Below are positions 15,371 to 64,000 of a DNA stretch of 64,000 nt, one piece after another. The notes under the pieces were generated by a model. That model saw only the letters and a list, made by a program, of their open reading frames with translations. It made no database searches and had not been told where the DNA came from. Each line of letters opens with the position of its first letter. The first letter of the stretch is position 1. The position numbers were made by a program, and so were the translations under genes. Source of the DNA: Paramacrobiotus metropolitanus (Eukaryota; Tardigrada; Eutardigrada; Parachela; Macrobiotidae); contig NW_026570261.1 of assembly GCF_019649055.1 (NCBI RefSeq), positions 930,001 to 994,000 on the forward strand, read 5' to 3'.

Positions 15371-18300
15371 TCAAGCGGTTGGATGAAATGGCAATTCCTT
15401 GCATGCATTTAACAAATGTGTTTGGAATCGACTAAGGCGCAACGTTTCGAAGTCCCGCAGATCCGCTGTTGCCCAGTAATTGTCACGCAAAACATTTCCG
15501 TCGAAGGCATGTCTGCAAACAAGAAAAGTAACCGTAATGTTGCAGTTCTCGGTTTTAGTGGAACGTGGCCAGACTTATTCACTTCTGCAGGAATTGTCGG
15601 AAATGCTGCCATCCTTCTGGATAAGCCACTACGTCCGCCATCGCGATCCAATTTTGACGAATTTTCTCGATAATGGTCTCCACGGAAGGTAAATTCTCTT
15701 CTACCAGTGCCATGAAGTAACGCAGAATATCTTCGTCATGCAGACCGTTAGTGTCGTGGAAGCGCATGAAGGACAGTGTCACCGAGATATCTTCTGAATG
15801 CCACGGTTCAAAAGGCTCAAGAAAATCCCGAGGGCAACTGCAGAAAATATCTAAAATACTGTAGTTGCAGACCAACAGTTGCCGGCAATAGGGCGCTAGA
15901 ATCGGCAGATGAAATAAATTACGTTCCATGGAAAAACGACCACAAAATAGTTCTGACGGTGCAACGGAGTTTTTGATGATGATTGTGGGTAACTCGATCT
16001 TTTTCAATCGGAAAAGCGCCGCCATACCGTCCAACTCATCGTGAACGTCATCGCCGCGTCGCCCTAGATTTAGCAGCGCCAGCGTCCGCGTGGAATGCTT
16101 GACGCTGTGATCAATGAGGCCGCTATAATAATATTCCTCGGTTTCCGGCAAGCCTGCCGGATGATGTCGTATGGTCTGGAAGTCGACTATCACCAACGTC
16201 GAGTTAGAGGCGTCTATTGTTGTCTTCCACACGTAACACACTCTGCAAATTTCTGTAAGGTTTATTTGAAAATCTATAAAGAAATCTCACTTTCTACCGC
16301 CAAGCCGAAACTTGAAGAAAAAATTCCTGCCGATTTAAGGCTGAATCTCCATACTATAGAATATAGGATAGTCATAAGAATTACAGTTAAAATCTATCAC
16401 TTCTTCTACTGGAAACCTATATCACTACAGCATAGCTGCATTGGCATATGATGTGGAAGAGGTGTATAGGTATACTCTAGGTGTTATGGGAAATTTGATA
16501 GGTATGGACCTTATGGCCCACTGGCTATAAGTATATGATTATAAGTATGTATTAAGTACAGAGTACATTTACAGAGTAAATCGCTACGTTTGACAATGAC
16601 GCAAGGCGAGTCCCATTGTTCTAGACGTATAAGACTGATATACCTCTGTAAGTAGCACTACCTACGACAACATTTTCCAAATTGTAGTCAACGAGTAATA
16701 AAGGTATACAAAGCAGCAAGTAAATGGAAAATAAGTTCAAATGCTGAGGATATACCCAGAGATGCCGTGTCAGCCTTTATTTTGTGACTTTCTTACCTTC
16801 TCACTAGAGCGCGAGAACGGCAGTCGAGCTGCAAAAGTACTTCCGGCAAGATGGTGATGCCAACCTTTCCTGGCATGTACGTAATCTTGTCTGCGAATTG
16901 TCAGGCTTTGTTAACAGCCAACAACTATAACGATAGCAATAAATACTTAAAGCATGCTACATACTGTACCTATATGTTTAGTAGCGCTGGTTAGCGCTCG
17001 CTCGTGCTCGCTGCTAAGTTTTTACCTTCCACTAAGGAACGTTAAATTCGGATAGAAATTGGCTGTTGTATAACCGAAAAACACCATTCTACCCTGGTAT
17101 CACAGCAAAGCGATTTCCACGTATTTGCCAAAATTTAGAATTGTTCGCTAGCAGCCTAGAACGTCATGGCGAGCACGGCAGGAGTGCTAATCACCGAGGC
17201 GCGTTCGGAGGTCTGTACATCTAGGAAGCCGCCATGCCGAGCGCAAACTTACTGGACTAACCTGAAATAGTGAATTGGTCGACGGTTTGATGGAGAGCAG
17301 CCTGCTCGCAGGTAGGTCGGCAACAATAACTGGCTTTTGTATACTCCGTTGAAAGGTTTCGGCATGAACATGGCGCAAACCACGTTCCGGTAAGCTCAGC
17401 TAAAGTCTGCGGAGACGGGAAGCCGAAACCATTCTGTGCTACCGCTATAAAGGCAAACAGTAAGAAAAGATCATTGCATTGTAGCGCAGTATATGCAAGT
17501 AATGCAACTGAAGTACATTCCTTCGCGGACTCTGGCTACGATTTTCCGATAGACCGAATAGAAAGAAGTATGTCCATGCTAATTTGTTGCGTTCCAGTTA
17601 CCTAGCATGTAGACATTCCAGCGCGCTTCCAATTCACGTTCGGTGTAACTGTAATAACGCACGAGATTCTCCGCGGCAGTTACCAGTCTCCGTTCGCAAT
17701 CTGCTGAGAAGGGACAGTGTCCCGATAGTCCATCCTTATACATTCTCCACTGATTAATTCCCAGGAACAGCCACACCATCCTATCGTCTACCAGCTTCAC
17801 GAAAAACCGATGCGATTCCCAACCGTATAACGAGTATCCGGCAGAGCTAAAGACCAACTGAACAAATCGCAGCATCTCGTACTCGCTAATTTTCCGAATG
17901 AACCGATTATGTTCCGATCGAAAAGTCAGTTTGATGATGGGTATTTCGTGTAGCCGTCCCCACAACGACGGCTGCTCAGTTGGTAGTTCCTCAACAATTT
18001 GCCTCCGATGTACTACATGTTGCGGTGCGGGTTCCCCGGTATCCTTATTCCGAACGACGTAGAGCAGTGCCACCCTGTCAAACAATAATCCAGGACGGAG
18101 AATGTATGGTCCGTTATAAGTCTTACGCACAGCAACGTGGACGAGGCTTATATTATCGATCTGTGGTTCGCAGAAGTGATGCTGCCATACATATTGCGAA
18201 TGGATCCAGCAGGGTGCCAGCTCTGCACAGTCAAAATCCACAAATATGTTATCACCGTCAATATCCTGAATGTACGCCAGCATCCACACATCGTCACCGC

Positions 18301-18376
18301 GATTAATCAACACCGTGTTGCCCAGATTGGCCTGGCGGTTATCAGTATTCCTCTTTCCATGCGAGAAGTAATCCAT
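15371..18376 (-). CDS. Tudor-like/F-box protein A1
   Basis: Predicted as join(18376-17602, 17444-17262, 16890-16797, 16242-15583, 15512-15371), 617 aa, all borders GT..AG and all phases consistent. Exon 1 (258 aa) has an SH3-barrel/Tudor-like segment (about residues 18-68: LGNTVLINRGDD, YIQDIDGD, FVDFD, CWIHSQYVW). Exon 2 is a 61-residue Cys-rich insert (TWFAPCSCRN..YCCRPTCEQ). Exon 3 plus the start of exon 4 spell an F-box (LPEVLLQLDCRSRALVRR/VCYVWKTTID). The rest of exon 4 and exon 5 form a conserved C-terminal module ending DNYWATADLRDFETLRLSR. F-box proteins recruit substrates to SCF ubiquitin ligases through Skp1; that role is inferred from the motif alone. The substrate, and whether the Tudor-like part binds methylated residues, are unknown. 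Confidence 0.8.
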
Positions 18377-18493
18377 AATTCCGTTTAGAGATCCTGATTT
18401 GGTGGGTCATTCGCTGATGTATAGTTTTTATAAAATTATACACCGTCTCAGAAATTAGCGGTACTTAAAATATCGTAACTGCCATCGAGTGCA

Positions 18494-18543
18494 GTTGGCA
18501 CTGCAGAACTGATCCGCCAATGCGGAGCGGCTGCGCTAAACAG
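18494..18543. promoter_or_regulatory. Shared upstream motif, A1
   Basis: On the + strand GGCACTGCAGAACTGATCC, then GCCAATGCGGAGCGGCTGCG. It is repeated about 100-220 nt upstream of the ATG of A1, A2, A3 and A5 and, displaced, of A4. It contains an inverted CCAAT box in gene direction. It may be a promoter element or part of a 5' UTR exon. Confidence 0.5.
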
Positions 18544-20484: not shown

Positions 20485-21055
20485 TCAAATGAAAGTGTGG
20501 AAGTAAGACGAGCAAAACAGTAAATACTGCCAGAGTGGCTTCAAATCGTGTTTATGTTATTATCGCACGCTAACGCACACTAATTGTGAGAGTCCTTAGA
20601 ACTGCAACACTCAGCTTTGCAGAATGAGTAATCAAGAACGAAGCAACGTAGAGCTCACTGGCGACAGAAATACTTACGTTACGGGGCGATCAGTGATCAC
20701 AATATCTATAAGCCTATTTCAGATTGCACGTGTTTTTCACTTTCGTTCAGTAGACCGTACGCCGTAACATAGGCCGCACGTCGGCGGACCGGAAACACTT
20801 CAGATATTACTTCAGATGCTTTACAGCTGCAGTGACGTACACTAACACTGAAATATCAGCCAGAAAAATTCAAAAATATTGTGCCACTGATTCTCACGAA
20901 TATGCACGGTAAATCATCATAAATTGGTATAAATTCCAAGACGAAAATTATAATTACTCCTTCTATGCCACAAAATTTTTAAAATTATAACCCTGCCAGT
21001 ATTACCTGCAGTTACTCCAACAGTCCTGATATTCCACAATAAATTTGTTATAATA

Positions 21056-26930: not shown

Positions 26931-29912
26931 TCAAAATGCTCTTGGGTTGAATGGCAGTTCCTTGCACGCATTTAATAAATGCATTTGGAATCTACTAAAG
27001 CGCAACTTCTCAAAGTCCCACAGGTCCGCTGCTGCCCAGTAATTGTCACGCAAAAGGTTTTCGTCGAACGTATGCCTGCGAAACGAGAAAACAGACGTGT
27101 TGCATTTCTCAGCTTTGATAGAACGTCCTCTAAAATGATGACAAGGAGCAGAATGTGGCCGTCGCTTACATTTGCAAGAACTGCCGGAAATGCTGCCAAC
27201 CTTCTGGATAATTCACTGTTTCCGTCATCACACTGAACTGCTGGCGAATTTTCTCGGTAATGGATTCCACTGGAGGCAAATTCTCTTCTACCACTGTCAT
27301 AACATAACGAAGGATATCATCATCCAGATCGTTAGCTTCGTCGAACCAAAGGATCGGCAGCGTAACCGAAATCTTTTCTCGATGCCACGGTACAAAACGA
27401 TCCAAATAATGCTGAAGGCAATCGCAGAAAATTTCTTTGATACGATAGTTGCAGACCAGCAGCTGTTGGCAATAGGGTGCTAAAATCGGCAGGTTAATCA
27501 TATAATGATCCACAGGAAAGTGGTAACAATGTAGTTCAGACGGTGCAACGCAGTTTTTAATGATAATTTTGGGTATCTCGATCGTTTTCAGTTCGAAGAG
27601 AGATGCCATAACGTTGAGCTCAACGAAAGTATTATCGCCGCGTCGACCCACATTCAACAGCGCCAACGTCCGCGTGGACTGCTCAACGCTGTGATCGATC
27701 AGGCAAGCAAAATAATATTCTTCCGTTTCCCGCAAGCCTGACGGATACTTTCGTATGGTCTGGAAATCGATGATCACCAACGCCGAGTCGGAGGCGTCTA
27801 TTATTGCCTTCCACACGTGACACACCCTAGAGTACAAATGCCGTCAGTCTATTACAAGATTTACAACATAATCCTACTTTTTCGCTGAAAGCAGAAAACT
27901 AGAACAAACTGCATCATAGTACTTTTCAGATTGAGGCTGATTCCACATACTCGTGTTGTAAACAATTTATAGAATACGGTGTGCAGTATCACCATACGAT
28001 AGGGCATAGATTAGAGTACAGTATATAAGCAAAAAATATATTGGGTAAATTACTATCTGTGACAATTGCCGCACGGCGATTTGCGATTGCAGATCTATTA
28101 AGTCATAGGTAGCGTTACCTGTCACACAGCCTCGTCCAAATTATAGTCAACAATTACTAAATTTTAAATACGTAGAAGAAATCAAATAAATTTTGTTTCA
28201 AACTTTGCGTTGATGACTTGGTGTATGGGAATGTAATCACAAATGTCGTGCTTCCCTCTATTTTTATTTTTTCTGACTTTTTTACCTTTTAGCCACAGCG
28301 CGAGAACAGCAGTCCAGTTGCAACAGTACTTCCGGCAAGATGGTAATGGCAACCTTTCCTGGCATGTGCGTCATGTCGCCTGTAGATTTTGACAGAAATC
28401 GCTGACAGCCAGCAACCACAGCGATAATGTGTATGCGATAGCAGTAATTACTTAAAGCCCTACATATATGTTAGCGGCGATACGTTCGCCGTTCAGTTTT
28501 CCGCATTTACCAGCTAAGAAAAATTCAGTATCTACATCCAGCAAGCCGCTGGATAGTGCGCAGAATTACCAAATTAACCTGAACGAGTGAACTGGCCAAC
28601 GTTTGGATGGAGAGCTCCAATCTGCTCGCAGGTAGGCCGGCTACAATAATCGGCTTTTGGAAGTCCCGTAGAAATATTTCGGCATGAACATGGTGCAAAC
28701 CATGTTCTCGTAATCGCGTCCAAAGTATGCCAACACGGGAAACCGAAGCCATTCCGTGCTGCTGCTATAAAGGCAAACAGTAGGAAAACAAAAACATTAT
28801 TGTAACGTTATACGTACACATATGCAACTGCAGTACTTCGATTGCAATTTTCCGGTACTTGGACTATGTAAGTGCTCAGTCAACGATATTGGTATACACT
28901 GTACAGCCTTTACAGAGCACATAAAAAATGAATAGGAATAGAATTATAACGCGGGGATGCGACGTGTATTGTAGAGGACTACTAACTTAGATCGGACGTT
29001 TTATGTAATTAAGCCCCCTGTTTCAGTTGTAGAACTCTGATGAATTACAGGTATTTCTAGTAGATATGCCGCGTGCCCTTAAATGCGTCAATTATAAAAA
29101 TATTACTGTGAATGCTAACTTGTCGCGCTTCCGTTACCTAGCATATAGGCATTCCAGCACGCTTCCACTTCGCGTTCGGGGTACCTATAATAACGCGCGA
29201 GATTCTCCGCGGCCGTTAACAGCCTCTGTTCGCACTCTGCCGAGAACTGACAGCTTTCCTCTAGTCCATTCCTGTACAGTCTCCACTGATCAAGCCCCAC
29301 AAAGAGCCAGAAAATCCTATCGTCTTCCAGCTTCACGAAGAACCGATGCCATGTCCATCCGTATAACGAATATCCGGCGGCGCTGAAAACCAACTGAACA
29401 AATCTCAGCATCTCGTAGTCGTTCACTTTCCGTATGAAGTGAATAAATTCCGATCGAACAGTTAGTTTGATAATGGGTATTTCGTGCATTCGTCCCCATA
29501 ACGAAAGCTGCTCAGCCGGCAGATGCTCAATAATTTGCCATAGGTGTACTACGTATCGGGTCTCTGATTCCCCAGTCTCCTCTGTTAGAACGGCATAAAG
29601 CAGTTTCATCCTGTCAAATAATGTTCCACGACGGAGAATATATGGTCCGTTATCAGTCTTCCGCACAGCAACATGGACAGTGCTTGTGTTACCGGCTTGT
29701 GGCTCGCAGAAGAGATGCTGCCATACATATTGCGAATGGATCCAACAAGGTGCCAGCTCTACACAGTCAAAATCTACGTACACGTTATCCCCGTCAATAT
29801 CCTGAATGTACGCCAGCATCCACACATCATCACCGCGATTAATCAGCACTGTGTTGCCCAGATTGGCCTGGCGGTTATCAGTATTCCTCTTTCCATGCCA
29901 GAAGTAATCCAT
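26931..29912 (-). CDS. Tudor-like/F-box protein A2
   Basis: Predicted as join(29912-29138, 28764-28579, 28379-28286, 27826-27170, 27075-26931), 618 aa and uninterrupted. Start is the ATG of MDYFWHGKRN; the four codons upstream open only with TTG. Tudor-like segment at residues ~18-68 (LINRGDDVWMLAYIQDIDGD). Exon 2 gives the Cys motif TWFAPCSCRN..YCSRPTCEQ. F-box ILPEVLLQLDCCSRAVAKR/VCHVWKAIID is split by the phase-2 intron after the Arg codon. The C-terminal module has TRTLALLNVGRRGD, LPILAPYCQQLLVCNY, WQHFRQFLQ, and DNYWAAADLWDFEKLRFSR. Very close to A1 and A3, so a recent duplicate. Confidence 0.82.
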
Positions 29913-30781: not shown

Positions 30782-33304
30782 TCAGTCTTTGTAGTAAGCG
30801 TCCAGTACGGCGCAGGTCAGCCGGTTCAACGATGACACGTCCAGTTGCCGTAAGTCGACTTGATCCCAGTATTGTGGGCTGCCATCGGCGCAAAAGCTGT
30901 TGAACCTGAGGAAGATGCAGCTATTACCTTCAGTCAAACTATTACTACATATATTGTCTGTGAACATTTGCATGAAAAGAGTAACTCACATGCTCCCTGT
31001 AGCTCATAACTAACTGTCTAACGGTGTGAATTTTCCATAACTGCTCAGGCCTGAGTACGTAATCGTCTTATTCTGAATATAACCATGCAGTTTTCGGTGC
31101 GAAATCAACTACCTGGTGCGCGATTTAACAAAGCGTCTGTTGTTACAAAGAAAAGGAAGTCTACAAGACAACTTAAAAGAAGCAAATCTCCAGATATCAT
31201 GTGCAGACGCGTCAAGCGATAAGTAGTGGCCTGACTTACATCCGGATGAAGCAGCCAATCCCCGCCCACTGATCGGAATAATCGAACGTCCGTACCCAGC
31301 GCGAATGTATTGTTGTGACCTTCTCCAACACGCGCTGCGTAACGGCCGGACAACTGTCGTTGAGCCCTGCTAAGAAGCGCCGAGAATGCTCTGCGGCTGT
31401 GTCCGTGCAGCGGAAGCGCAGCAACGGAGCAACAACAATATCCAGCCGTCCTCCACCGATATTCCACAGAAAGGCCTCTTCGTCTCGTGGCCACACCACT
31501 CCGGTATGGTAGGCGTGGAAGCTGATCTGACAGGAGGCGGTGTAGTTGATCAGCCACAGCTCGACACACGCCGACATCCATCCACGCGCGGCCGACGACA
31601 GCGCCTGGCATTCGTAGTTCCGACCAGTTCGATCGTTAGCCCGCAGCTCCAGAAACGGCAGGCCAACGAACGACGGATCCTCGTTGCCGTTTTTGGCGAT
31701 GAGCAGTGGCAGGCGTAGACCTTTCTTTCTCACTGTACCGCCGAAAAGCTGCATTCGTAAAGCGAACTCGTCACTGCGGTAGCCGCGCTGTTGAACGAAA
31801 GAGCGCTCTTCAGGTGTTCTTTCGTCAACCAAAGCCACTGCTCGCGTGTTCGCCGAAATGCTGCCTTCCAGCAATAAGGAGAATGTATATGCTTCGTTAG
31901 CGCAAAATGCCATAGTAACCAACCGACCCCAAGGATCACTTTCGGGCAGCGGGCTGATGACGAAAATCACGTGACGTCTGCTGGCTGGTTCACGCTCCAC
32001 CAGTCTCCAAAGTGCACATACGCTGCAAACGATTATCAACGGAGAATCAGATTACAAATTGGAGAAATACTGAATTTCCGTCACAGTTTACCAAAAAAGT
32101 CAAACAAGTGATCATAGGATAACTTGTTGAACCGGTGATTGGCTTGGAGCGTTAGCCTCTCGTCAGTCGTCTTGGGTTCTTTTATATAATCTTATGTATT
32201 TTAATGTCGGTGCTTGTTGGTTGATATGATTCTATGACTTACTGGCTGATCCTAAACTTAGTAAGTATATCCAGATCCCACAAAACGCACTGAAGAACAT
32301 CAGCAGACAGATGAGTGATGCCCATCTCTTCGCTTTCTGCAAGAACATCAGTGTTATCAATGGAAGGTGTCACGTTAGCCGTTGAAACTGTCGCTGCTAC
32401 TTCACCAACCATCAGGGACTTCACCAACCATCCAACCATCCGTTGGACATTTCGCAACCGTCAAGCTGACTCGCAGCTGGAGATCCAGTGGCTGTTGCTC
32501 GGAAAGGTACTGCTGACATGCTTCCTTCAAAAAGCTCACGGTCCAGAACATACTACGCCCAGCGGCGTCCGCGTGTATTTCAGCACAGATGAACGTCACC
32601 GTGTCGACTGCCGCTCGCACAAACGTCCGAACACTAAACACATGATGTTCGCCCGTCTGATAATGCTCCCCCGTGCAGCGAAAAGAGAACCCATCCAAAC
32701 CGAACGTAAATTTTTTGAATCGACAACTAGCACTGCAGGGGCGGCTCCCCTGATCCAGCGCTAATTGGCATGTCTCAGCAAGGAACTTTGGCATAAACTT
32801 TACGTGGCGCAAGCGATACGGCTGGCCGAAATCGACGATATGCTTCCGGTAGACGAGCCCGTGAGCCCTTGCGAAAAAGCTCGGCTTGCCATCCACGGAT
32901 GGCAGCTGTGAAATGAGATGTCGCACCGGCACGATGCGGCGGTCGAGTGAATTATCCAGGTAGACGGCGCAGAACATGCAGCGCAAATCCTCGATGATCG
33001 TGGCGCACCGGAAACTCAGCGACCCCCGTACTTCGTCTCGCAGCGCCACATACGCAGGAAACCCGGGCAATTTCAGTAGATCAAGATCGCCGATAAAGTG
33101 ATGCGGCCAGAGATGCTTAGCATGGATCCACTGTGCACTGACTGTGCCGGCATCGAAGTCAACGAAGAAACGGTCGCCCTCAATATCCTGAACGTATCCC
33201 AACCACCACTGGCCGTTGTCGCGCTGCACCACCACCGTATTCCCGTAGTTGATTTCCGGCGTACCCGAATGCAGCTCTCGAAAGTAACGTAATGTGGCCG
33301 GCAT
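30782..33304 (-). CDS. Tudor-like/F-box protein B1
   Basis: Predicted as join(33304-32425, 32336-32243, 32022-31240, 30905-30782), 626 aa. Exon 1 (293 aa) opens MPATLRYFRELHSG and carries the Tudor-like segment (NYGNTVVVQRDNGQWWLGY, QDIEGDRFFVDFD, SAQWIHAKHLWPHHF). The 94 nt exon 2 gives the F-box HLSADVLQCVLWDLDILTK..ISH/VCALWRLV, with the same length and intron phase as exon 3 of subfamily A. Exon 3 is the C-terminal module (LPLLIAKNGNEDPSFVG, SACVELWLINYTAS) and exon 4 ends QLDVSSLNRLTCAVLDAYY. The exon 1 donor is chosen among repeated GTTGGTGAAG motifs because it alone keeps phase 1. The small Cys-rich exon of subfamily A is absent. Confidence 0.8.
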
Positions 33305-35099: not shown

Positions 35100-36989
35100 T
35101 CAAGGGGCTCTTGAACTGAATGGCAGTTCCTTGCATGCATGTAACAAATGCATTTGGAATCGAGTAAAGCGTAACGTCTCGAAGTCCCGCAGATCCGCTA
35201 CTGCCCAGTAATTGCTCCGCAAAAGGTTTTCGTCGCACGTATGCCTGCAAAACGAGAAAATTTTTCATTTCTCAGCTTTAACAGAGCGTCCACTACAAAG
35301 ATGACATGGAACAGACTGTGGCAGTCGCTTACATCTGCAGAAATTGGCGAAAATGCTGCCAACCTTCTGGATAATTCACTGTTTCCGTTATCACACTGAA
35401 CAGCTGGCGAATTTTCTCGGTAATGGGTTCGACTGGAGGCAAATTCTCTTCTACCACTGCCATAACATAACGAAGAATATCATCTTCCTTCAGACCGTTA
35501 GCGCCATGGAAGTGCATAATCGGCAGGGTAACCGAGATTTTTTCTCGATGCCACAGTTCAAAACGACCCACATACCGCCGCGGACAACCGCAGAAAATGC
35601 CCACAATACTGTAGTTGCAGACTACCAGCTGCCGGCAATAAGGTGCCAGAATCGGCAGATGAAGTAAAGTATGATCCACAGGGAAGCGATGATATATTTC
35701 TAACGATACAACACAGTTCTTGATTATGATGGTGCGTAACTCAATGTGTTTCAACTGGAAAAGTGAGGCCAGAACACTGAGCTCATCGGAGACATTATCG
35801 CCGCGTCGACCCAAATTCAATAGCGCCAACGTCCTTGTGGACTGCTGAACGCTGTGATCAATCAGGCAACTGTAATAATATTCCTCGGTTTCCCGTACAC
35901 CTGGCGGATATTGTCGTATGGTCTGGATGTCAGCTATCACCAGCGCCGAGTCAGAGGCGTCGATTATTACCTTCCATACGTGACACACCCTACGAGTACC
36001 CCGTATTTATTATAAAAAGTGTTATGAATCATACTTTAGAAGATCGAAGAAAACAAGAAATTCAACGCAAGGTTTACATTGCCTTTCCAGTAAGTATAAG
36101 GCGGATTCCCCATATTCAGACACAGGGAGCACTGTCTACTATATATACATATTTAGAGCGTTTTCAGAATGTTTTCAAGGAATAATAAGCAACGAGCACA
36201 CAAAGCAAGTAAATTCTATAATAAGTTTGTGTGTGCGAATATACCTATGCAGAGTCACACCATTTTTCTGACTCTCTTACCGTTTTAGTAGAGCGCAAGA
36301 ACGGCAGTCGAGCTGCAACAGTATTTCCGGCAAGAAGGCAATTGCAACCATTCCTGGCATGTACGTCGTGTTGTCTATAAATTTTGTCAAAAATCGCACA
36401 AAGCCAGTAACCACTGCGATAATGTATAGCGATAGCAATATCAATTACTTCAAACGTCTAAATTTACATTTGCTTGCACTGAAAAACTCGCTGTAAATTT
36501 TTTTCTGACGCATGGAATTCTGGCGATACGCGTCTGGCGGTATCACAGCAAGGCGTTTTTCGCGGATTTACCAGCAGGTTTGTGAGAGGCGGGAACGCTG
36601 GCAATCGCCCGGACGCGTTCGAAGGTACGAAGCTCTTATCTACATCCAGAGAGCCACAGAATTGCGGAACTAACCTGAGCAAGTGAACGGGCAAATGTTC
36701 GGATGGAGAACAGTCTGCTCGCAGGTCGGCCGGCAACAGTAAACGGCTTTTGCACGCTCCGTGGAAACATTTCGACATGGACATCGTGCAAACCATATTC
36801 TGGTAAGCTTGTCCAAGGTGTGCCAACAAGGGAAACCGAAACCATTCTGCGCTAAGGCTGTAAAGGCAAAAACTTTGAAAAACGTATCAGTGTAAACTGT
36901 ACTAGTAATATCAGATGTCTAACTGAAGCTTTTGCACTCTGACTACGGTACTTGGATTTATGAGTACTAAGGCAAACAAATGATTAGTG

Positions 36990-37320: not shown

Positions 37321-38404
37321 AGATTTCTATTTCTTCAGTATCTTCGGTAAATTCAGAAATTAATATTTAAATTTCATTTATAAAATCAGCAGTGTTCTCC
37401 TGTCGCAGGCGTCCGCCCTTCTAAGAGGCACAGCATTAGGCACTTGCTCGATTTAGTTACCTAGGATGTAGGCATTCCAGCGCGCCTCCAGTTCGCGTCC
37501 GTTGTAACTGTAATAGCGCACGAGATTCTCCGCTGCCGTTAACAGTCTCCGTTCACAATTTGCTGAGAAAAGACTATTTCCTGGCAGTCCCTCCCTGTAC
37601 ATTCGCCAACTAATAATCACCAGGAACAGCCACACCATTCTGTCGTTTTCCAGTTTCACGAAAAATCGATGCCATCCCAATCGTACAACGAGTATCCGGC
37701 AGCGCTAAAGACCAATTGAACAAATCGTAGCATCTCGAAATCGTTAATTTTCCCAATGAAGCCGATATATTCCGACAGAATTGTCAGTTTGATAATGGGT
37801 ACTTTGTGCAGTCGTCCCCATAACGATGGCTGCGCAGCCGGCAGATTCTCAATAATCTGCCATCGGTGTACAACGTGTCGGGTTTCCGGTTCCCCGGTCT
37901 CCTCTGTCAGAACGGCATAGAGCAATTCCATCCTGTCAGATAATCTTCCAGGACGGAGAATATATGGTCCGTTATAAGTCTGACGCACAGCAACGTGGAC
38001 GATGCTTGTTTTATCGAACTGCGGCTCGTAGTGGTGATGCTGCCACACAAATTGCGAATGAATCCAACAAGGGGCCAGTTCGGCACAGTCAAAATCCACG
38101 TATACCTTGTCGCCATCAATATCCTGAATGTACGCCAGCATCCACACAGCATCGCCGCGGTTAATCAGCACTGTGTTGCCCAGATTGGCCTGAAGGTTAT
38201 CCGTATTCCTCTTTCCATGCGAGAAATAATCCATGCTTTTGTCTATTGCTACTGATTTCCCTGACATATAGTTTTTATGAACTTCACTTGCAAACTCGTG
38301 GAGCAAAATAAGATTGGGACTAGTTTAAATACAATTGCATCCTGTTCGGTAAAGCAACGTTTGAGAAATTAGAGGTACGTAAAGTATAGTAACTGCCATC
38401 GCTT

Positions 38405-43018: not shown

Positions 43019-45759
43019 TCAAAAATTTGCAGAAAACGGCAGCTCCTCGAAGGTGATCAGTAAATGCTTCAAGAAACGACTTAGACGCAACGTTTTGAAG
43101 TCCCGCAGATCTGACGTAGCCCAGTAGCTGCCCGGCGAAACGTCATCATCGAACATATGCCTGCAGAAAGATAAAAACATGGTAATGTGGTTTGCGTCAG
43201 ATTTCTGGGAGTTACTAGAAAATCAACAAAGCAACCGCTGTTAGAGTTACTTTTGCAGGAAGTCCCGGAAATGCTGCCATCCTCCAGGGTAATCCACTTT
43301 TTGCGTCATCACACGGAACTTTTCGCGAAGCTTCTCAGTAAATATTTCCATGCGAGGTAAATTCTCTTCTACCAGTGCCATGAAATGACGAAAAATGGTA
43401 TCACTATCACGGCCATCGGAGCAGTCGAAACGCATGCTGGGTACCGAGATCGACAGATCGTCGAAATCTGGAAGCCGGCACCGTCGAGAGCAGATGCAGG
43501 TGATGTCTATGACGCTGTAGTTGCAGACCAGCAGTTGCCGGCAATACGGCATCAGAACTGGCAGATTGTACAAAAACTTTTCCCCGTCAAAGTCGCCGCA
43601 AAACATTTCGAAGGGGACAAGGCAGTCTTTAACGATGATTGTGGGCATTTTGGTCTTTTTCAGATCCAGCAACGAGGCCAGGATACCGAACGAATAGTGC
43701 ATAACATGATCGCCACGACGACCGAAATTGAGCAGCGCCAACGTCCGTGTGGACGGTTGCACGCTGCGATCAACCAGATAACTACAATAATAGTTTTCCG
43801 TATCCCGCCAACGTGGTGGATATTGTCGCATGGTGTGAAAATCGATTATCACTAATGCCGAGTCGGAGCAAGTGTCAATCACTGCCTTCCACAGGTGGCA
43901 TACTCTGCAAATACCGTCGGTTTATATGAAAACTTACGAGGAGTACTTCTTACTAGACTACTAGTGCAAAGGGGAATACGAAAGCAGAGAGAAGTAAAGA
44001 TCTGAATGGGATGATCTACTGTAAATGGATTGGGCGACGGTATTGAGACGGTAGATGGCACCGCCCTACAGATACCAAATTTATGTACAAGAACGTGAAC
44101 AGCTTAGGCTCGCTTAGATACTTTTTTACATTGTTCTGTGGTATTGTGTAGTTACGTGATTTGTACTCAGTACAAATCACAGTATACATTGGCATGGAAA
44201 ACGTTTACGGAGTAATGGCTGTAGAAAAATTCCAAAAAGTTTAAACGCATTTTGGAGTATCAAAATGTTACTGTGAAGTGTGAACCGTTCTTATCATAAT
44301 TTTGCATGGAAATGCGCATAATCATAAAGATCGCTCGTACACCGATCCACGTTCTAGCTTTTTTTCAGAGTTTGAAATGCACTATGTACCGGGTAATTTC
44401 CCATAATGGTGGGTAGGTAGTGGTACTGTACTTGCAATGGTAAGAAAATAAACGCAAAATTTTAGCAATGTTATATAGCTACCATTTTGCTTATGTGTAT
44501 GTTAAATTTAAAGATACAGTCTTGTCGGCATGAATCTTGCTGTCCACATGGCATGAGAACAAGATTTTTCCGGCTTTCTTACCGTTTAACTACAGCGCGA
44601 GAACGACATTCGAGCTGCAACAGTACTTCCGGCAAGACGGTAATGGCAACATTTCCTGGCATGTACGTCGTGTTGCCTGCAAAGTACGAGACATCACTTA
44701 AATCATGCGGTAACAGGATGGAAAACAAAGTGTTGGTTGGCTGCCTGGGAGTGGCTGGGACTTACAAACGGTGTTCACATGCTTCGTCGAAATCCCTCGG
44801 AACGGGCAAGGTTCCAACCATTCTCTGGCAAGCCCGGGCAAAGTAAACCACCCGCACGGAAAGCCAAAGCCGTTTCGCACTAGGCCTGTAAGGCAATTAT
44901 CAGGGGAAAAATAAGTGCGTCAATGGGCTTGTATTTACGCCTTAAATTCGTAGTCTACATGCAAACTTGTTGTCTTGCTACCGGTTCATGGGTCACCTAG
45001 GATGTATGCATTCCAACCGGCTTCCAGTTCGTTTTCGCTGCAACCATAAAACTGGACGAGGTTCTCCGCGGCTGTTAACAATCTGCGTTCGCAGTCTCCA
45101 GTGAAGAGGATGTCTTTTCCGTACCAATACCGTTTCCAGTGATCGAGCCCCAGGAACAACAACATCATCCTATCGTTGTCCATCTTCACGAAAACGCGCT
45201 CACATCCCACGTTGTACAGGGAATATCCAGCAGCACCAAAGACCAACTGAACAAATCTCAGCATCTCAAAGTTAGTAATTTTTCTGATGTACTTGACATA
45301 TTCCGATTGTATAGTCAGTTTGAGAATGGGTATCTCGTGGAGCAGTCCACACAACGATGGCTCCTTAGTCGGCAGAGGATCAACAATTTGCCACCGATGT
45401 AGAAGGTGCGGGGTTTCGGGTTCACCGGTTCCTTTTGTTAGAGCGGCATAATACACATTCAGTTGTCTGTCTAATAATTGTCCAGGACGAAATATGTACG
45501 GGCCGTTCCGGGTGCCCCGCACTGCAACGTGAACGCTGCCCGTGCTGCCTAGCGGCAAATAGTGGTGGTGCAGCCACACATATTGCGAATGGATCCAGCA
45601 AGGTGCCAGTTCCTCACAGTCAAAATCCACGAATACGCTATCGCCGTCAATATCCTGAATGTACGCCAGCATCCACACATCATCGCCGCGATTAACCAGC
45701 ACGGTGTTGCCTAAGTTAGCCAAGCGATTACTACGTTTCCCACATGAAAAGAAATCCAT
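43019..45759 (-). CDS. Tudor-like/F-box protein A4
   Basis: Predicted as join(45759-44997, 44885-44766, 44676-44583, 43904-43251, 43160-43019), 590 aa, uninterrupted. Start MDFFSCGKRSN. Tudor-like segment LVNRGDDVWMLAYIQDIDGD. F-box VLPEVLLQLECRSRAVVKR/VCHLWKAVID. C-terminal exon ends SYWATSDLRDFKTLRLSR. Exon 2 is only 120 nt: an earlier donor (GTAAGT at 44765) removes the CxC..YCCRPTCEQ part kept in A1-A3, yet keeps the phase. It pairs with A5 and A6 (shared MDFFSCGKR start, LRDF/LRNF tail and 3' flank) rather than with A1-A3. A P-type element lies about 180 nt upstream of its ATG, pushing the shared motif to 47205. Confidence 0.82.
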
Positions 45760-47161: not shown

Positions 47162-47204
47162 GCATTACCGGTATAGTGCACAGTATTTGAGTTTGCAGTG
47201 CAGT

Positions 47205-47514: not shown

Positions 47515-50024
47515 ATGCCGGCCACATTACGTTACTTTCAAGAGTTGCGCTCGGGTTCACCCGAAATCAACTACGGAAACACGGTACTGGTGCAACGCGA
47601 CACCGGCGTTTACTGGCTGGGATACGTGCAGGATATTGAGGGCGACAACTTTTTCGTTGACTTCGATGCCAACACAGTCAGTGCACAGTGGATCAATTCT
47701 AAGCAGCTGTGGCCGCATCATTTTATCGGCGTTCTCAATCGATTAAAATTGCCTGGATTATCCGCATATGTGGCGCTGCGAGATGAAGTCGGTGGGCCGC
47801 TAATTTTCCGGTCCGCCATGATAATCGAAGATTTGCACTGTATGTTTTGCGCCGTCTACCTGGATAATTCACCCGAACGCCGAATCGTGCCGGTACGGCA
47901 GCTTACGGCACGACTGCCGTCCGTGGACGGTGAGCCGAGCTTCTTCGGAAGGGTTAACGGGCTCGTCTACCGGAAGCATATCGTCGATTTCGGCCGGCCG
48001 CACATGTTACGTCATGTAAAGTTTATGCCCGAGTTCCTGGCTGAGACATGTCAGTTATCGCTGGCTCCTGGTAGCCGTGCGTCTGGTGTCCATTGTCGAT
48101 TTAAAATGATTGGGCTCGGAGCTGTTAAATCTTTTTTCCAGTGTACGGAAGAAGAGCATTCTGATCCGTGTGAGCAGCATGAGTTTAGTGTTCGGGTGTT
48201 CGTCAGAGCGTCTATCGTCACGGTGACGTTCATCTGTTTTGAAGTGCACGCGGACGCCGCCGGGCGAAGTATGTTCTGGACTGTGGACACTTTGAAGGAT
48301 GCATGCCAACGGTACCTCTACAAGCAACAAACCCGGGAGTCCCAGTTGATTGTTAATTTGGCGGTGACGGGTTGCTCGACGGTTGCTCCATTCCAGCACG
48401 GTTAGTGTAGTCGTCTAGGGTCGGTCTGACTTCGGAAGTCAATCTAGTTACCGCGTTGTGCCTTCGTGTACCGTTTCTGTAGCTGTGGCCAGTGGCCACT
48501 GCGAACAGCCACTTCGTGCGGCAGATCAGCCACACCTAAGCTAGACTCGCTTGGAATTTGAGACACATCCTAGCAAAAGAGACAGTACAAAAATAAACTG
48601 CGACAGATTAATTTCCCACTGATAAGTGGTAACGATAGTGGTATTGCAGAGAATGAAGAATTGCGCATAACTGATCTGCCGGTGGCTGTTCTTGGGTGTG
48701 TTTTGCGGGATCTGGATGTCCTTACACAGTCACGGATCAGCCAGTAAGTGACGGAAATTGATTTACTAATTAGCGCTTTTCGTTTGAACATTGCGCACTT
48801 TTATCACCAAAATTTGTGAGTTACGACGGCTATACGGCTTTGCTTTATACAGCCCGACGTACTTCAAAGAAGGTGCTTAAGCCTTATAGAAGTGAACTGC
48901 AGAAGATCAAAGTTAATTAACTGCGACGTTAGAGACAAACTTGTTGCACTTAATATCCGGTAATCTCTGACGAAAACCATTTTTTATCGAGCGATTTTGT
49001 AATCTGGATCTCCGCTACTTATCGTTCCCAGGGTGTGTGCATTGTGGAGACTTGTGCTGCATGAACCGGTCAAGAACCGTCACGTGATCCTCATCCTCCG
49101 TCCGCTGCCCGTAAGGGATTCGTGGGATAGTTGGATCACGATGGCTTTATGCGCCAACGAAGTATACAAATTCTCCATGATGCTGGAAGGTAGCATTACC
49201 CAGAACACGCGCGTCGTGGCGTTAGTGGACGAAAGAACCCTTGAAGAGCGTGCCGTCCTTAGAGCACACTCCTGCAGTAATGCCGAATTCGTATGGCAAA
49301 TGCAGAGTATCGTCGATGTACTGAAAAGGAAAGCCCTACGCTTGCCACTGCTCATCGCCAACAACGGCAACGAACACTCAGCAGTCATCGGCATCCCGTT
49401 CCTGCACCTGCGTGCCAATGATCGCACGTGTAAGAACTACGAATGCCGGACGCTGTCATCCGCAAGTGGATGGATGTCGGCGTGTGAAGAGCTGTGGCTG
49501 ATTAACTACACCGCCTCCGGTGGGACCGGCTCCCAGCATTTACTGCAGTGGCTCTATCCTACAGGACAGTTGTGGCCGGACGAGGAGAGGGCGTTCATGT
49601 GCGACACCGATGAGGAGCGGCTGCATGTGGTTATTCCTTGGCTGCGTTTCGGAAGCACGGAACCAGCCGCAGAGCAGTGCCGACGCTTCTTGGCCGCGGT
49701 TAACGACGGTTCCCCGGCCGTTACACAGCGGGTTTGGGAAAAGGTCACGGCGATCCATGGGCGTTGGGTGCGGACGTTGGCCTACCCAGAACAGTGGACC
49801 GGAATTCATCGCTTCATCCGGATGTAAGTAAAGCCTCGGCATGGCGCGCCAGAATAGGTTACTGCAATGGTTGGGTTAGACAGCGGTTCGTGTTGATTAG
49901 GTTCAACAGTTTTCCAGCCGACAACAGCCCGCAGATCTGGGATCAAATCGATTTGCGGTACATGGACCTGTCATGGTTGAACAAGTTGACCTTTGCCGCA
50001 CTGGACGCCTATTACAAAGATTAG
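47515..50024 (+). CDS. Tudor-like/F-box protein B2
   Basis: Predicted as join(47515-48400, 48650-48743, 49032-49823, 49901-50024), 631 aa, uninterrupted. Exon 1 MPATLRYFQELRSG, Tudor-like NYGNTVLVQRDTGVYWLGY, QDIEGDNFFVDFD. Exon 2 is again 94 nt and gives LPVAVLGCVLRDLDVLTQS..ISQ, joined to VCALWRLVLHEP: an F-box. Exon 3 is the C-terminal module (ALVDERTLEERAV, LPLLIANNGNE, SACEELWLINYTAS, HRFIRM). Exon 4 runs FNSFPADNSPQIWDQIDLRY, then TFAALDAYYKD. Exons correspond one to one with B1, with B2 in opposite orientation. It is divergent to A4. Confidence 0.82.
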
Positions 50025-50682: not shown

Positions 50683-53534
50683 TCAGTGATTCGCAGAAAA
50701 CGGCAGTTCCTTGCATACATTCAGCAAGTGCATAAGGTAACGGCTGAGACGCAAGGTCTCAAAGTTCCGCAGATCGGCTGTTGCCCAGTAATTGTCATGC
50801 AAACCTTGTTCGTCAAACACGTGCCTACAAAAACATGTAAATATTGAAATACGGTTGACGTCAGATCTAATAGACCAGCTTCTAAATAATCAACATAGCA
50901 GGCAGTTGCTGTGAGAGTTACTTTTGCAAGAAGTCCCGGAAATGCTGCCATCCTGCAGGGTAGTCCACTTTTTGCGTCACCTCGCTAAACTTGTGGCGAA
51001 GTTTGTCGGTAAATTGTTCCACGGGAGGTAGATGATCTTCTACCACTGCCATGAAATACCGAAAAATCTCATCCTTATCCAAACCGTCACAGCGATGGAA
51101 ACGCATGACAGACAGGGTAATGGTAGGCAGCGTAATGGGAAGACCATCTGAACTGCCCCTTCCACGATACCGCCAACGGCAGCCACAGAGACTGTTTTCG
51201 ATACTGTAGTTAATGACCAACAGCTGGCGGCAATATGGCGTTAGAGCTGGTATATGGAACAAATATTTGTCATGGACAAAGTCGCCGCAAAATATTTCGA
51301 TCGGGACAAGGCAGTTTTTAATAATGATTGTGGGTATCTTGATCTTTTTCAGATTGAGCAGTGAGGCCGTAATACCGAACGAAGTTTGTGTATCGTCGCC
51401 GCGTCGACCGAAACTGAGCAGCGCCAGCGTCCGCGTAGACGGCTGCACGTTGCGATCTATCAGACAACTGTAATAGTAGTCTTCCGTGTCCAGCCAACCT
51501 GGCGGATATTTTCGCATGGTCTGGAAGTCCATGATTACTAATGTCGAGTCTGAGGTGTCGATCACTGTCTTCCATAGGTGGCACACTCTGCAAAAACCGC
51601 GAATTTATTTACAGAGACTTAAGATGGATGCATGTACATGTGCAAAATGTAAGGCTTAGTAAACCTATAAAATTTTGGTATGAAAAAAATGGTCGAAGTC
51701 GTAGATACACCAATTCACACGTCTACCGACTTTCTTACCGTTTTGCTGCAGCGCGAGAACGACAGTCAAGCTGCAGCAGTACTTCCGGCATGATGGTAAT
51801 GGCAACATTTCTTGGCATGTTCGTGAGGTTGTCTGCAAATTTCAAGACCAGTGCGGTTAGGCCTTCATTACTCGTAATGATGAATGTGCGTGTACCATCC
51901 AGTTTGTTAGAGTAGACAATTGACATTAAGATCTCCACCTTTTACAAGCATCGCCGTTCCAAAAATAGCAAAGAGATTTCCAGTATGTTGAAAAAATTTT
52001 CGCAAACAAGCATCGACTTTTTTAGAGCAGCAAAAGCCAAAGTTTTAAGGGTATGTGCCGAAATTACAGATTTGTAGTACTTTAATAGCCTTGTCGGACG
52101 GGGAAATATAATAACGAAAACACTAGGCTTCGCAACCGTCAGTGCGCGTTCGAACGCGCACGCCCTACTACCTGCGCGAGATACCATGGACAGAATCCCG
52201 AGCTGAACTAACCTATCAGAGTGGACCGGCATACATCCGGGTTGAGAACGGCCTGCAACCTGGTGGGCTGGCTCCAACGAATGGCGCTGGTATGTTCTGT
52301 GCAAATCCCTGGGATCGGGTGAGGTTTAAAACACTTCCTGGTAAGCGCGTCCGCAGTTTCCCAACACGGCCACCCTAAACCATTCCGTGCTGCTTCTGCA
52401 AGGCAGAGCGTAAAGAAATATTATACAAGCACATATCTGTGCATACGTAAAGATTTCTGAACAATTGGTCAGTTTAACTAATCATTACGAACAGTTGGTC
52501 ACTGCGACAAGGAACGGACAGCGAATCAATTTTATTTTTTAGACGTATTTACTTGGCTGGGCGTCAAGAGTTCCATAAATACTTCAGTTAACCAATCCAA
52601 CAGCATGAAAAAATACAAAGCGAATACAAAAGGAAATTTTCTTTCTGACATACATGAATAACATTATGACGTTATCATTCCGGCGCGCTGCTGTAATGGT
52701 CATACATTAATAACTCACCCTTGTCCTGTTACGTTGTTAGAACATAGATACAGTACCTAGCATGTATGCATTCCAGCCGGCTTCCAGTTCGCTTTCGCTG
52801 CAACTATAAAACAGCACGAGGTTCTCCGCGGCTGTTAGCAATCTGCGTTTGCAATCTCCTAAGAGGAAAATGTTTTCCGACTGCATTGAGTATCTGCTCT
52901 TTTGCCACTGAGTAGTTCCCAGGAACAACCACATCATCTTGTCTTGTTCCACCTTCACGAAAAATCTATCATTTTCCATCCAGACCTCTGAATACCCAGC
53001 AGCGCTAAAGACCAACTGAACAAATCTCCGAATCTCATAGTCGGTAATTTTGTGGATTAAATGGATGTATTCCGATTGGATTGTCAGTTTTATTATGGGT
53101 ATTTCGTGCAGTCGTCCCCACAACGACGGCTGCTCAGTCGGCAGTTCATCCACAATTTGCCACCTATGTATAACGAGCTGGGTTTCGGGTTCCCCGGTCT
53201 CCCCGGTCAGAGCGGCATAGTACATATTGTACTCTCTGTCCAACAGTTTTCCAGGACGTAACGTGTATGGTCCGTTCTGGGAACTCCGCACAGCAACGTG
53301 GACGTTGGTCACGATGATCGGTCTGCCTAGCAGCTCATAGTGGTGATGCTGCCACACATATTGCGAATGGATCCAGCCAGGTTCCAGCTCTGCACAGTCG
53401 AAATCCACGTACACGTTATCGCCGTCAATATCCTGAATGTACGCCAGCATCCACACATCGTCACCGCGATTAATCAGCACTGTGTTGCCTAAGTTTGCCA
53501 AATTATTACGCTTCCCACAAGAGAAAAAATCCAT
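50683..53534 (-). CDS. Tudor-like/F-box protein A5
   Basis: Predicted as join(53534-52757, 52395-52213, 51832-51739, 51587-50922, 50824-50683), 620 aa, uninterrupted. Start MDFFSCGKRNN; the frame upstream opens only with GTG. Tudor-like LINRGDDVWMLAYIQDIDGD; F-box IMPEVLLQLDCRSRAAAKR, joined to VCHLWKTVID; C-terminal TRTLALLSFGRRGDD, WQHFRDFLQ, DNYWATADLRNFETLRLSR. Exon 2 keeps its length (183 nt) but its cysteines are largely replaced (KCFKPHPIPGICTEHTS..WSQPTR), so this exon evolves much faster than the F-box and tail. Confidence 0.82.
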
Positions 53535-54108: not shown

Positions 54109-54310
54109 TAAAGCGGGCAAGTGCTGCATGGAGAATTCTGCGGATTGCACGGACTGCAAACAAGTAAGCTCACAGTATCTTGAGCGGCGCTGGGAGAGGG
54201 AGCGGAATAAAGGCACAATGAACAAAGCGGGCTCCCAGGCACAAGACATCCGGCTGCTCCGCAAATGCCGGCTCAGCCCGAATAGCCGGCATTGGCCAGC
54301 ATGACACTCT
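54109..54310 (-). pseudogene. Decayed copy of the 39470 12-Cys gene
   Basis: Reads almost in one frame as the mature part of copy 5: CGAAGCLVPGSPLCSLC, then QDTVSLLVCSPCNPQNSPCSTCP. At least one in-frame stop is present, several cysteines are lost and the signal peptide is unrecognisable. The conserved upstream box survives at 54823-54857, separated by an extra ~0.3 kb. Confidence 0.7.
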
Positions 54311-54349
54311 TGCAAGTTTGACGTTACCAGCAGCCGCACAGCAAACAAA

Positions 54350-55319
54350 TATTAAATCGAATAGCTTGTTTGTTTGTTTGTTTAATGGACGATCAGGTAT
54401 AACCTGCACGAGGTCGTAGACTACTCATAATAGAAAAACTTTCGCAGTAGCGAAAGTCTTACGCAAAGAGAAACCACAAAAGTAAACAGTATAGTTCACA
54501 GTAAACAACAATGATCTTTATGAATAAAACGTTTCGTCCACTTTAAATCCGTCCATTATACAGCAAGGAGAGCTGCATCGAAGCGGCTAACGTGTATGTA
54601 CGCTTCCTTCGGGAGCACAATTTCGTTCCAAAGACTGGCCATGAGGACAAAGCATTAAAGAAAGCCGACGCACGGATGAAATTGACTAATTTGCAGCACT
54701 AGAAAACTAGCTAGGTTAGTTTGTTATACTACAACTTAGCATCGAGCATCTTAGCATCTATAGTACATCGAGTTATACAAAGTAGGTTTAAAGGGCTCTA
54801 CAATTCGTTAGACGCAAAAACACTGAAACCGCCTAAGGTCACGCGCTATCGAGAACTCTTTTTAATGCATTCCAAATAATGTGAAGTGGCTCCGAATTTT
54901 TTTCTGCTCGTAACACTGCAGAAAATGAAACTTTGTGATTAAAACAGCATTGTCAATGCATCAGCTCTTTTGGCCGTTGAAAATGTTTACATGATCTTAT
55001 TCAGTTAATCAGCGTTTCAATGCTAAGAATTTATTGAATTTTTATCAGTGCCACTAAGTGCCGTTTAACAATTTGACCTGATCTTGAATACCGAAAGGGA
55101 TGTAATGTGTTTATTCTGTACGTAATACACTCGAAGAATACACCTTAAAAAAATCGAAATTGTGAGTGTAGCAAAAATTCATCACTTATACCCTTTGCGG
55201 CAATCTTATTACCGTTATTTAGTTCAGTTACGCCGGCACTAGATCAGTTTAGGATGTTCACACAGTAAACGGTTAATCTCGATAACCTTGAAGTACTTCC
55301 TCAGACTTCCTCAGTAATT
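54350..55319. other. Intergenic with TTTG tract and conserved box
   Basis: A (TTTG)4 tract at about 54365-54384, a small TTTCGCAG/AGCGAAAG palindrome near 54440, the 12-Cys upstream box at 54823-54857 (ACTGAAACCGCCTAAGGTC), and A-type 3' flank from about 55010. No gene. Confidence 0.45.
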
Positions 55320-57250
55320 TTAGGAAAACGGCAATTCCTCGTATGCATTCAGTAAATGCATAAGGTAGCGACTTAGACGCAGCGTCCCGCAGATCCGCAT
55401 TTGCCCAGTAATTATCGTGCAACTTTTCATCAAACATGTGCCTACAAGACGCAAAAAAATGGTATTGTGGGTAGCGTCATTGTTTAATAGAGCAGCTTCT
55501 ACGACATTACTTTTGCAGGAAGTTCCGGAAATACTGCCACCCGTCAGGGTAATTCACGCTCTGCGCCATCACTCGGAACTTTCGGCAAAGTTTCTCGGTA
55601 AATGGTTCCACGGGAGGTAAATTATTTTCTACCATCTCCATGAATAACGAAATATGTTTGTGTTATCCAAGCCGTCAGCGCAACGGAAACACATTACAGT
55701 CAGCGTGATTGGGAGAGAGTCTGGACGGCCCGCTCCAGGATACCGGTCCGGGCAGCCGCAGAGAATGTCTTCAATGCTGTAGTTGCAGACCAACAGCTGC
55801 CGGCAGTATGGCATTAGAACAGGTATATTGAACAAATAACCCTCCTGAGCAGCGTCGCCACAAAAAAATTCGAACGGGGCAAGGCAGTTTTTAGTGATTA
55901 TTGTGGGAATTTTGATCTTTTTCACATTGAGCAGCAAGGCCATAATACTGCACGAACGGTCTATATCATCGCCGCGTCGACCGAAATTGAGCAGCGCCAG
56001 CGTCCGCGTCGAGGACTGCACGCAGCGATCAATTAAACAAGTGTAAATGTAGTCTTCCGTATCCGGGAAACCTGGCGGATATTTTCGCATAGTCTGAAAT
56101 CGATGATCACTAGTGTCGAGTCGGAGAAGGCGTCAATCACTCCCTTCCACAAGTGGCACACTCTACAAAAACCGTCGGTTTGTTAGAAAACTTATGGTGG
56201 ATACTGTAGTTTCTGTTTTGGTACTAAGTTTGTACTTGTACTACGATACTTATTAAAGGTTAGCTCGCCAGTGCAAAGCAGAACATTCAGACATCGAGGA
56301 ATAATGTTTACAAACAAGGTGCACATAGGATAATTCTACATGTATAAAGCTATGGTTTGGACAGTATTACAAACCGTAAACTGATATCGCATAAACCTGT
56401 GATATTACCGATCTCTAGATGTTGCAGAAGTCAACCCAACATAACATACGTAAACAGCAACCCATTAAACCACGCCGTTCACGGCACAAGACCACTGTAG
56501 TTGCCAAGTAGGCATACACTGCTGGACAATTAGCTACTGGCGGAAGGGTCACGTGCAAAGCGACCACAGCGCGAAAAGTAATACTTTAGCCATTAAATTA
56601 CGAATATGATACCTAGTCATACGTCATGTAAATCTTGTCTTAGGTAATAACGTTTTCCCGTCTCCTTACCGCTTCATTACAGTGCGAGAGCAACATTCGA
56701 GCTGTAGTAGTATTTCCGGCAAGACGCTAATGGCGACATTTTCTGGCATGTTGGTCGTTTTGCCTGCAAATTTTGGGAGGTATCGTTCCAGTTATGCGGC
56801 AAAGGAATTATATATTACTGTATTCGTAATGTTTCACTCGTAATGCAAAGTCTAATTTTAGTTTTCTCAACGTCATAAGCGACCCGCAATTTCGAAAAGA
56901 TCCGTTGATTTTTGAACAGAAATCTCGTGAAACGCATCGACCCTTATGGCGTAATGACCCGCTGGAACGTTCTGGTGTATTGGAAACCGAGAAGCCGCAA
57001 GATGGCGCACAGAATGTTTGAACTAACCTAACCGGGTTAATCGACCTGGTTCCGGATGGAGAACAGCTTGGGGGTTCGCGGTCAACGTCATACAACTGGC
57101 GTTCACATGTTTTGTGGAAGTCTTTTGTGGACCGGCACTCCGTTGCTAAGCAAAATATGTGCGGCAGCACTACCACAAAATCATCGTATGTGCTTGCAGG
57201 AAGATACAACTTCCCTGTCAGAAATTTTAAGCCTTAGGTTAATGTTTAGC
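55320..57250 (-). pseudogene. Tudor-like/F-box gene A6, decayed
   Basis: Recognisable parts: a remnant of exon 2 ending at 57028, exon 3 (56763-56670, again 94 nt, F-box VLPEILLQLECCSRTVMKR), exon 4 (56162-55511) and exon 5 (55441-55320). Exon 4 is 652 nt, not a multiple of three relative to its relatives, with frame changes near its start (IIDF/QTMRKYP, about 56092) and near NTNIFRY (about 55645). Exon 5 has an 8 nt deletion after DLRD (about 55385). Exon 1 with the Tudor-like domain is not found upstream. Nearest relative A5. Splice sites of exon 3 remain intact. Confidence 0.8.
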
Positions 57251-63273: not shown

Positions 63274-63518
63274 TATAACGCGGGGCCGTATGAGCGCCAC
63301 GCGCATCCTCGACAGCGAAACTGCGGGGAACCCGGATGAGGCTTTATTGCCGAATCTAATGCGCACCGTGGCGCAACAACACCAGACTAACGAGGAAGGA
63401 TTCTGCAGCCAGTGCAACTGTGCTGCAGATCCGTCAAAACAGCGCAGAAATGTGCGGGGTGGAAATCCCCAGAAACAGCGAATAGCTACTCAGGAGGGCG
63501 GAGCGTCCCGCCCTTACA
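63274..63518 (+). repeat. Dispersed repeat, copy 2 (245 bp)
   Basis: Inverted copy of 42054-42301 with the same ends (TATAACGCGG.. to ..CCCTTACA). It lies 290 nt upstream of the B3 start. The left flank differs from that of copy 1, which fixes the border to within 1-2 nt. Confidence 0.8.
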
Positions 63519-63805
63519 GTCTTCATCGCCAAAAACTGAAAATATTTTCCCGTTGGTTTGGTTTCATTATTATCCCGGCTTAAGTTTACTTTATCCCGGC
63601 TTTTCGTAAACTTTATTACTTAGAGTTCGTCGCGGTAAGAAGTGAAGTTGATCTTACTTCTCTTTATACTTTTGGTATGCCCTATCATTTCTGCTACATT
63701 AAAGTAGAGTAAGTAGAGTCGGAACCGTCGAAATAAACAGTACACCATCTGATTGAGTGGAATGGAATACACCTTTACGGGTCTTTCTGTCAATCATTCA
63801 CCAAC

Positions 63806-64000
63806 ATGCTGACCACCTTACGCTACTTTCGAGAATGGCACTCCGAGAAGTCCGTAGTTAACTTTGGAAACACGGTGCTGGTGCACCGCGACAACGGTCA
63901 ATGGTGGATGGGATATGTTCAGGATATTGACGGCGATCGGTTCTTCGTTGACTTCGACGCTACCACGATCAGTGCGCAGTGGATACATTGTAAAGAGCTG
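63806..64000 (+). CDS. Tudor-like/F-box protein B3, 5' end only
   Basis: The first 65 codons, cut by the window edge. MLTTLRYFREWHSEKSVVNF, then GNTVLVHRDNGQWWMGY, QDIDGDRFFVDFD and SAQWIHCKEL. This matches exon 1 of B1 and B2 throughout, including the CAACATG start context. Orientation and the divergent placement relative to A6 repeat the A4/B2 arrangement. The F-box and C-terminal exons should lie to the right of the window. Confidence 0.85.
   Translation, partial: MLTTLRYFREWHSEKSVVNFGNTVLVHRDNGQWWMGYVQDIDGDRFFVDFDATTISAQWIHCKEL

Follow-up and report, generated by a model that had tools for sequence, protein, structure and literature searches.

The 64,000-nt stretch of Paramacrobiotus metropolitanus DNA analyzed here (the window) contains, at positions 15,371–64,000, an array of related genes, raising the question of whether a Tudor-like module and an F-box are joined in a single protein family and, if so, what such proteins might do. 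Using exons of the two subfamilies, A and B, as tblastn queries, we identified nine homologous copies by their N- and/or C-terminal modules. Both modules are present in five A and two B copies; a sixth A copy has just the C-terminal module, and a third B copy is represented by its start, cut at 64,000. Searches at E ≤ 0.1 with the six spliced proteins detected no further copies within the window, confirming the nine-copy array proposed in the first-pass annotation. Its tally of copy states was likewise borne out by the gene models and tblastn: six intact copies (four A and two B), one A copy with a broken frame in exon 1, one decayed A copy, and one B copy cut by the window (Table 1). The coding sequence runs uninterrupted from the ATG to the stop codon in A1, A2, A4, and A5 (617, 618, 590, and 620 aa, respectively; five exons) and in B1 and B2 (617 and 622 aa; four exons), in agreement with the difference in exon number between the subfamilies noted previously. 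A3 has lost a single base relative to its paralogs, and its other four exons are open. In A6, the F-box exon and the C-terminal exons remain, though with broken frames; no Tudor exon was found for this copy by tblastn in the window or with the spliced-protein queries at E ≤ 0.1.

Table 1. Positions of the array genes and their exons in the window
Feature	Position	Strand	Basis
A1 exon 1 (predicted Tudor-like barrels and third alpha/beta region)	17602..18376	-	gene model; structure model made on the A2 copy
A1 exon 2 (A-specific, Cys-containing linker)	17262..17444	-	gene model
A1 exon 3 (94 nt, first part of predicted F-box)	16797..16890	-	gene model
A1 exon 4 (predicted F-box end VC..W and C-terminal module)	15583..16242	-	tblastn, gene model
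A1 exon 5 (C-terminal end, stop)	15371..15512	-	gene model
A2 exon 1	29138..29912	-	gene model
A2 exon 2	28579..28764	-	gene model
A2 exon 3 (F-box, 94 nt)	28286..28379	-	gene model
A2 exon 4	27170..27826	-	gene model
A2 exon 5	26931..27075	-	gene model
B1 gene: exons 33304-32425, 32336-32243 (F-box, 94 nt), 32022-31240, 30878-30782	30782..33304	-	gene model
A3 exon 1, frame break near 37,675	37461..38234	-	tblastn, A-locus alignment
A3 exons 2-5: 36857-36675, 36374-36281 (F-box, 94 nt), 35989-35333, 35244-35100, all open	35100..36857	-	
A4 gene: exons 45759-44997, 44885-44766, 44676-44583 (F-box, 94 nt), 43904-43251, 43160-43019	43019..45759	-	
B2 gene: exons 47515-48400, 48650-48743 (F-box, 94 nt), 49032-49823, 49928-50024	47515..50024	+	
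A5 gene: exons 53534-52757, 52395-52213, 51832-51739 (F-box, 94 nt), 51587-50922, 50824-50683	50683..53534	-	
A6, decayed: match to the F-box exon at 56758-56669, C-terminal exons with broken frames at 56164-55314	55314..56758	-	
B3: first 65 codons (first Tudor-like barrel), truncated at the end of the window	63806..64000	+	tblastn

The window holds other features as well. A small Cys-rich protein family is interspersed at four places identified by tblastn [1946–2152 (+), 4130–4378 (−), 7139–7348 (+), and 39482–39661 (−)]; the copy at 4130–4378 opens with a signal peptide-like stretch, and 54099–54300 is related to 39473–39671 at the DNA level (79.7%). An LRR ORF (LRR_8, E = 2.9e-8), together with a downstream module related to two further stretches, accounts for 12499–13152 (+), 14088–14387 (+), 11418–11699 (−), and 24657–24806 (−). 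A fragment of a protein kinase domain (Pkinase, E = 2.9e-27) lies between A1 and A2 [19016–19801 (−)], and a transposase ORF, presumably Harbinger-like (DDE_Tnp_4, E = 1.2e-21), is located at 20954–22147 (+). A THAP domain ORF (E = 1.4e-12) lies between A4 and B2 [46156–46638 (−)], and pieces of an LTR retroelement in separate ORFs, namely, a PNMA-like gag (below the cut-off), an aspartyl protease, and the RNase H-like domain of reverse transcriptase, lie between A6 and B3 [59179–61656 (−)]. The first intron of A3 contains a tRNA-Leu(CAG) gene on the opposite strand [37250–37321 (+)]. The segments 42054–42301 and 63274–63518 form an inverted repeat, 94.8% identical across 249 columns, that may be a recent mobile element.

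When the A loci with both modules, five in number, were aligned, five conserved blocks emerged, with GT and AG at their boundaries, and all 22 introns of the six intact gene models are of the GT..AG type. Intron phases are 1,1,2,2 in A and 1,2,2 in B. The extra exon of A (exon 2) separates the Tudor exon from the F-box exon and is flanked by two phase-1 introns, and the F-box exon is 94 nt long in all seven copies measured (A1–A5, B1, and B2). The acceptor of the last exon in B is pyrimidine poor, yet it occupies the same place and phase in B1 and B2. Conserved frames and splice sites define the predicted gene structure, all copies are homologous, and the single shared architecture with conserved phases suggested initially is upheld; the start codons of the models are predicted, and a further upstream exon may exist. 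The A and B proteins are 22.5–24.4% identical over the spliced length, so this architecture appears to be old and retained.

The segment that follows the first intron(s) was compared with Pfam as 34-residue spliced pieces, taken without gaps by exon position from seven copies. PF00646 matched six of the seven (best E = 1.2e-4) and PF12937 five of the seven, with no unrelated family listed; the profile search with these two families that had been suggested as a check thus recovered the F-box. Four full-length proteins were scanned (A1, A5, B1, and B2). A5 matched PF00646 (E = 0.0028) and PF12937 (E = 0.064), and B2 matched PF12937 (E = 0.015) and PF00646 (E = 0.016) in the homologous position; each of these matches is below its curated cut-off. 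A1 and B1 produced no Pfam match, neither F-box nor Agenet, and none of the four passed a gathering cut-off. The F-box profile had no match among PDB sequences. In the Pfam register, position 8 is taken by A5 residue 334 and position 1 by B2 residue 302; Val330-Ala331 of A5 occupy positions 4 and 5, as does the Leu-Pro pair of B2, and VC falls at positions 27 and 28 in both. The A motif LPEVLLQL, originally read as the start of the F-box, begins five residues late and is not the F-box Leu-Pro, a site that is LP in B2, LS in B1, and VA or VG in the five A copies; the F-box claim itself remains supported. Two helix leucines and VC..W are invariant among the seven aligned copies. Identification of the segment as a putative F-box is supported by these profile matches.

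For the N-terminal region, the exon-1 ORF of B1 matched Agenet (E = 0.0036, below the Pfam cut-off), a match absent from the scan of full-length B1. Agenet was found in two of the eight exon-1 rows, and weak matches to Tudor_4 and Tudor_FRX1 in a few copies, along with unrelated families at similar E values (DUF5641, 0.031; Phage_sheath_1C, 0.053; Herpes_gE_N, 0.11); the exon-1 profile had no matches among PDB sequences. AF2 modeling of A2 exon 1 from an eight-row alignment yielded two barrels followed by an alpha/beta region, at low confidence (mean pLDDT of 53; ten-residue means of 52–72 over residues 21–140). A Foldseek search with this model returned 778 matches at E ≤ 10. All eight at E ≤ 0.001 are N-terminal structures of FMRP or FXR, albeit with low TM-scores (0.24–0.33 by query and 0.30–0.50 by target), followed, within the best 50 of the 778, by SETDB1, SGF29, 53BP1, and further structures of the Tudor or KOW type. 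The structure prediction that had been recommended thus produced two barrels and a Tudor-led list of folds, at the low pLDDT given above.

A profile of FMRP (sequence of 4qvz) and FXR1 was used for sequence comparison. The first barrel matched it with E = 4.4e-4 over 31 columns, and none of 100 column shuffles was as good, versus 41 of 100 for the second barrel and 99 of 100 for the third region compared with KH0. For the whole exon-1 profile, the hhalign probability was below 3% (E = 0.015–0.018), and one of 200 shuffles was as good; homology with FMRP over the full exon 1 was rejected, the signal coming from barrel 1 alone. From the shuffles and the model, the first Tudor-like barrel is supported by sequence, the tandem pair is suggested by the low-confidence model, and KH0 is not supported; the SH3-barrel/Tudor-like N-terminus claimed at the outset is retained to that extent. 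The residue aligned with FMRP F32 is invariant in all eight rows. F32 is reported to be one of two residues whose change affects partner binding by the tandem Agenet domain of FMRP and to be important for its binding of FUS and other proteins (PMC5430443). The array proteins thus resemble the FMRP/FXR N-terminal tandem Tudor (Agenet) module in the two modeled barrels, the best fold matches, and the first-barrel sequence similarity but differ in that no sequence match was detectable for barrel 2 or KH0 and in the presence of an F-box in place of KH domains, with no KH1 or KH2 match in the Pfam scan of the four spliced proteins.

The C-terminal modules of A and B are homologous (tblastn E = 6.7e-4, with conserved columns). 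No Pfam family was found in six of the seven copies, and the isolated match in the seventh, TetR_C_27 (E = 0.0055; 0.02 at full length), was rejected as a single-copy chance match. The module profile had a single match among PDB sequences (E = 1.7). An LRR nature, suggested by the residue pattern, was set aside, being without Pfam support and with a structure model (pLDDT of 36) too poor to use.

The intact genes of the array are under purifying selection. Whole-CDS dN/dS was 0.34, 0.26, 0.34, 0.30, 0.37, and 0.35 for the six pairs among A1, A2, A4, and A5 and 0.33 for the B pair; A3 was excluded from the dN/dS and pN/pS counts. Per-exon dN/dS was below 1 in 32 of 34 comparisons, the other two (exon 5) yielding no value, with exon 2 laxer (0.33–0.74). 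In three pairs, no 40-codon window had pN clearly above pS, and two windows had them about equal. Whole-CDS dS was 0.49–1.06 among the A pairs and 0.65 for the B pair, and A2 and A3 share duplicated DNA past the last exon (80.6% over 1,246 columns). Duplication and loss thus gave rise to the array, although the measured copies are not recent. The description “rapidly duplicating” is therefore weakly supported and is not upheld as worded. In the phylogenetic tree, the A/B split is fully supported, and the order inside A is mostly unresolved.

Several alternative readings bear on these results. The Tudor exon and the F-box exons could belong to separate transcripts or to side-by-side genes, with a Met common to A1–A5 near the start of the F-box exon as a potential start codon; B2, however, lacks this Met, the phase-1 donor lies at an identical place in A1–A5, where readthrough stops occur at four different distances, and A and B, only about 24% identical, have retained one order of modules, making this arrangement highly improbable. 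We consider it unlikely, to a lesser degree, that these are F-box-derived proteins acting outside SCF, with a degenerate F-box that has little or no affinity for SKP1, and serving as Tudor scaffolds or adaptors. The missing Leu-Pro pair of the A-type F-boxes and the full-length matches, which were below the Pfam cut-off in two proteins and lacking in the other two of the four, would fit such a role, whereas the invariant helix leucines and VC..W, the LP kept in B2, and the dN/dS of the F-box exon (0.29–0.79 in seven pairs, though of just 31–32 codons each) argue against it.

A third alternative concerns the N-terminal arm, which might be a generic SH3-like barrel for protein contacts, devoid of reader function, with FMRP merely being the nearest fold. 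We regard this as a possibility to be taken seriously, if a doubtful one: the weak model with its low TM-scores, the other Tudor and KOW structures next in the Foldseek ranking, and the failure of barrel 2 and the third region to find sequence support speak for it, and the profile match of the first barrel to FMRP/FXR1 and the invariant aromatic residues speak against it.

F-box families frequently expand in single lineages, and their substrates usually remain unknown. As in the F-box superfamily (PF00646/PF12937), members of which are SCF substrate receptors, the array proteins have a 34-residue segment that matches in register, with a long divergent C-terminal module behind it, and the genes are tandemly duplicated, with decayed copies; unlike in that superfamily, the full-length scores are sub-threshold, LP is lost in A, and the F-box is central, with a Tudor-like arm ahead. 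We know of no named family that combines a Tudor-type reader with an F-box. By titles and abstract starts, no description of a Tudor–F-box family was found in the literature among the matches listed, which does not prove its absence. No relatives of the array proteins were found in viral contigs or prokaryote genomes, as expected for a eukaryotic gene. The Caenorhabditis F-box-FTH and F-box-FBA2 expansions are lineage-restricted F-box sets in which the F-box is similarly followed by a divergent module of about 300 residues, but in those sets dN/dS is reported to peak at the C-terminus, with no such peak in the three pairs scanned by window here; “Tudor” is absent from the main text of that paper (PMC8665587). 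The array proteins had no Pfam match to the FTH or FBA2 domain at a maximum E of 10, a setting at which HMMER filters drop most matches above about 0.1. An F-box ligase–FXR link is described in a study in which FXR1 is degraded by SCF-Fbxo4, FXR1 there being the substrate (PMC5688124).

Taken together, the array is probably a tandem birth-and-death family of F-box proteins that would act as SCF substrate receptors with a Tudor arm. This is in partial agreement with the first-pass annotation, of which the architecture, the F-box, and the Tudor/SH3 barrel were supported, but not the A-type F-box start or the rapid duplication. The predicted product of an intact gene (590–622 residues) would consist of N-terminal Tudor/Agenet-like barrels, modeled as a pair with an FMRP/FXR-like fold, followed by an uncharacterized alpha/beta region, an F-box in the center whose coding sequence is interrupted by a phase-2 intron, and, at the C-terminus, a long module. 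The F-box is proposed to dock on SKP1 of the SCF (SKP1-CUL1-RBX1) ubiquitin ligase, and a partner bound by the Tudor arm and/or the C-terminal module would be presented for ubiquitination; by analogy with FMRP, such partners could be methylated or RG-rich proteins belonging to ribonucleoprotein or chromatin complexes. Transcription, SKP1 binding, the ligand class, and degradation are what we infer here. A bolder version, which we put forward as speculation and judge decidedly unlikely, is that an FMRP-type N-terminal module (tandem Tudor and KH0-like) was captured by an F-box scaffold, giving rise to multigene ligases that degrade RG-rich or methylated ribonucleoprotein or chromatin proteins, for example, in genome or antiviral defense. 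For the probable family of SCF receptors, a Tudor-type reader ahead of the F-box would provide a testable class of substrates, namely, RG-rich or methylated proteins.
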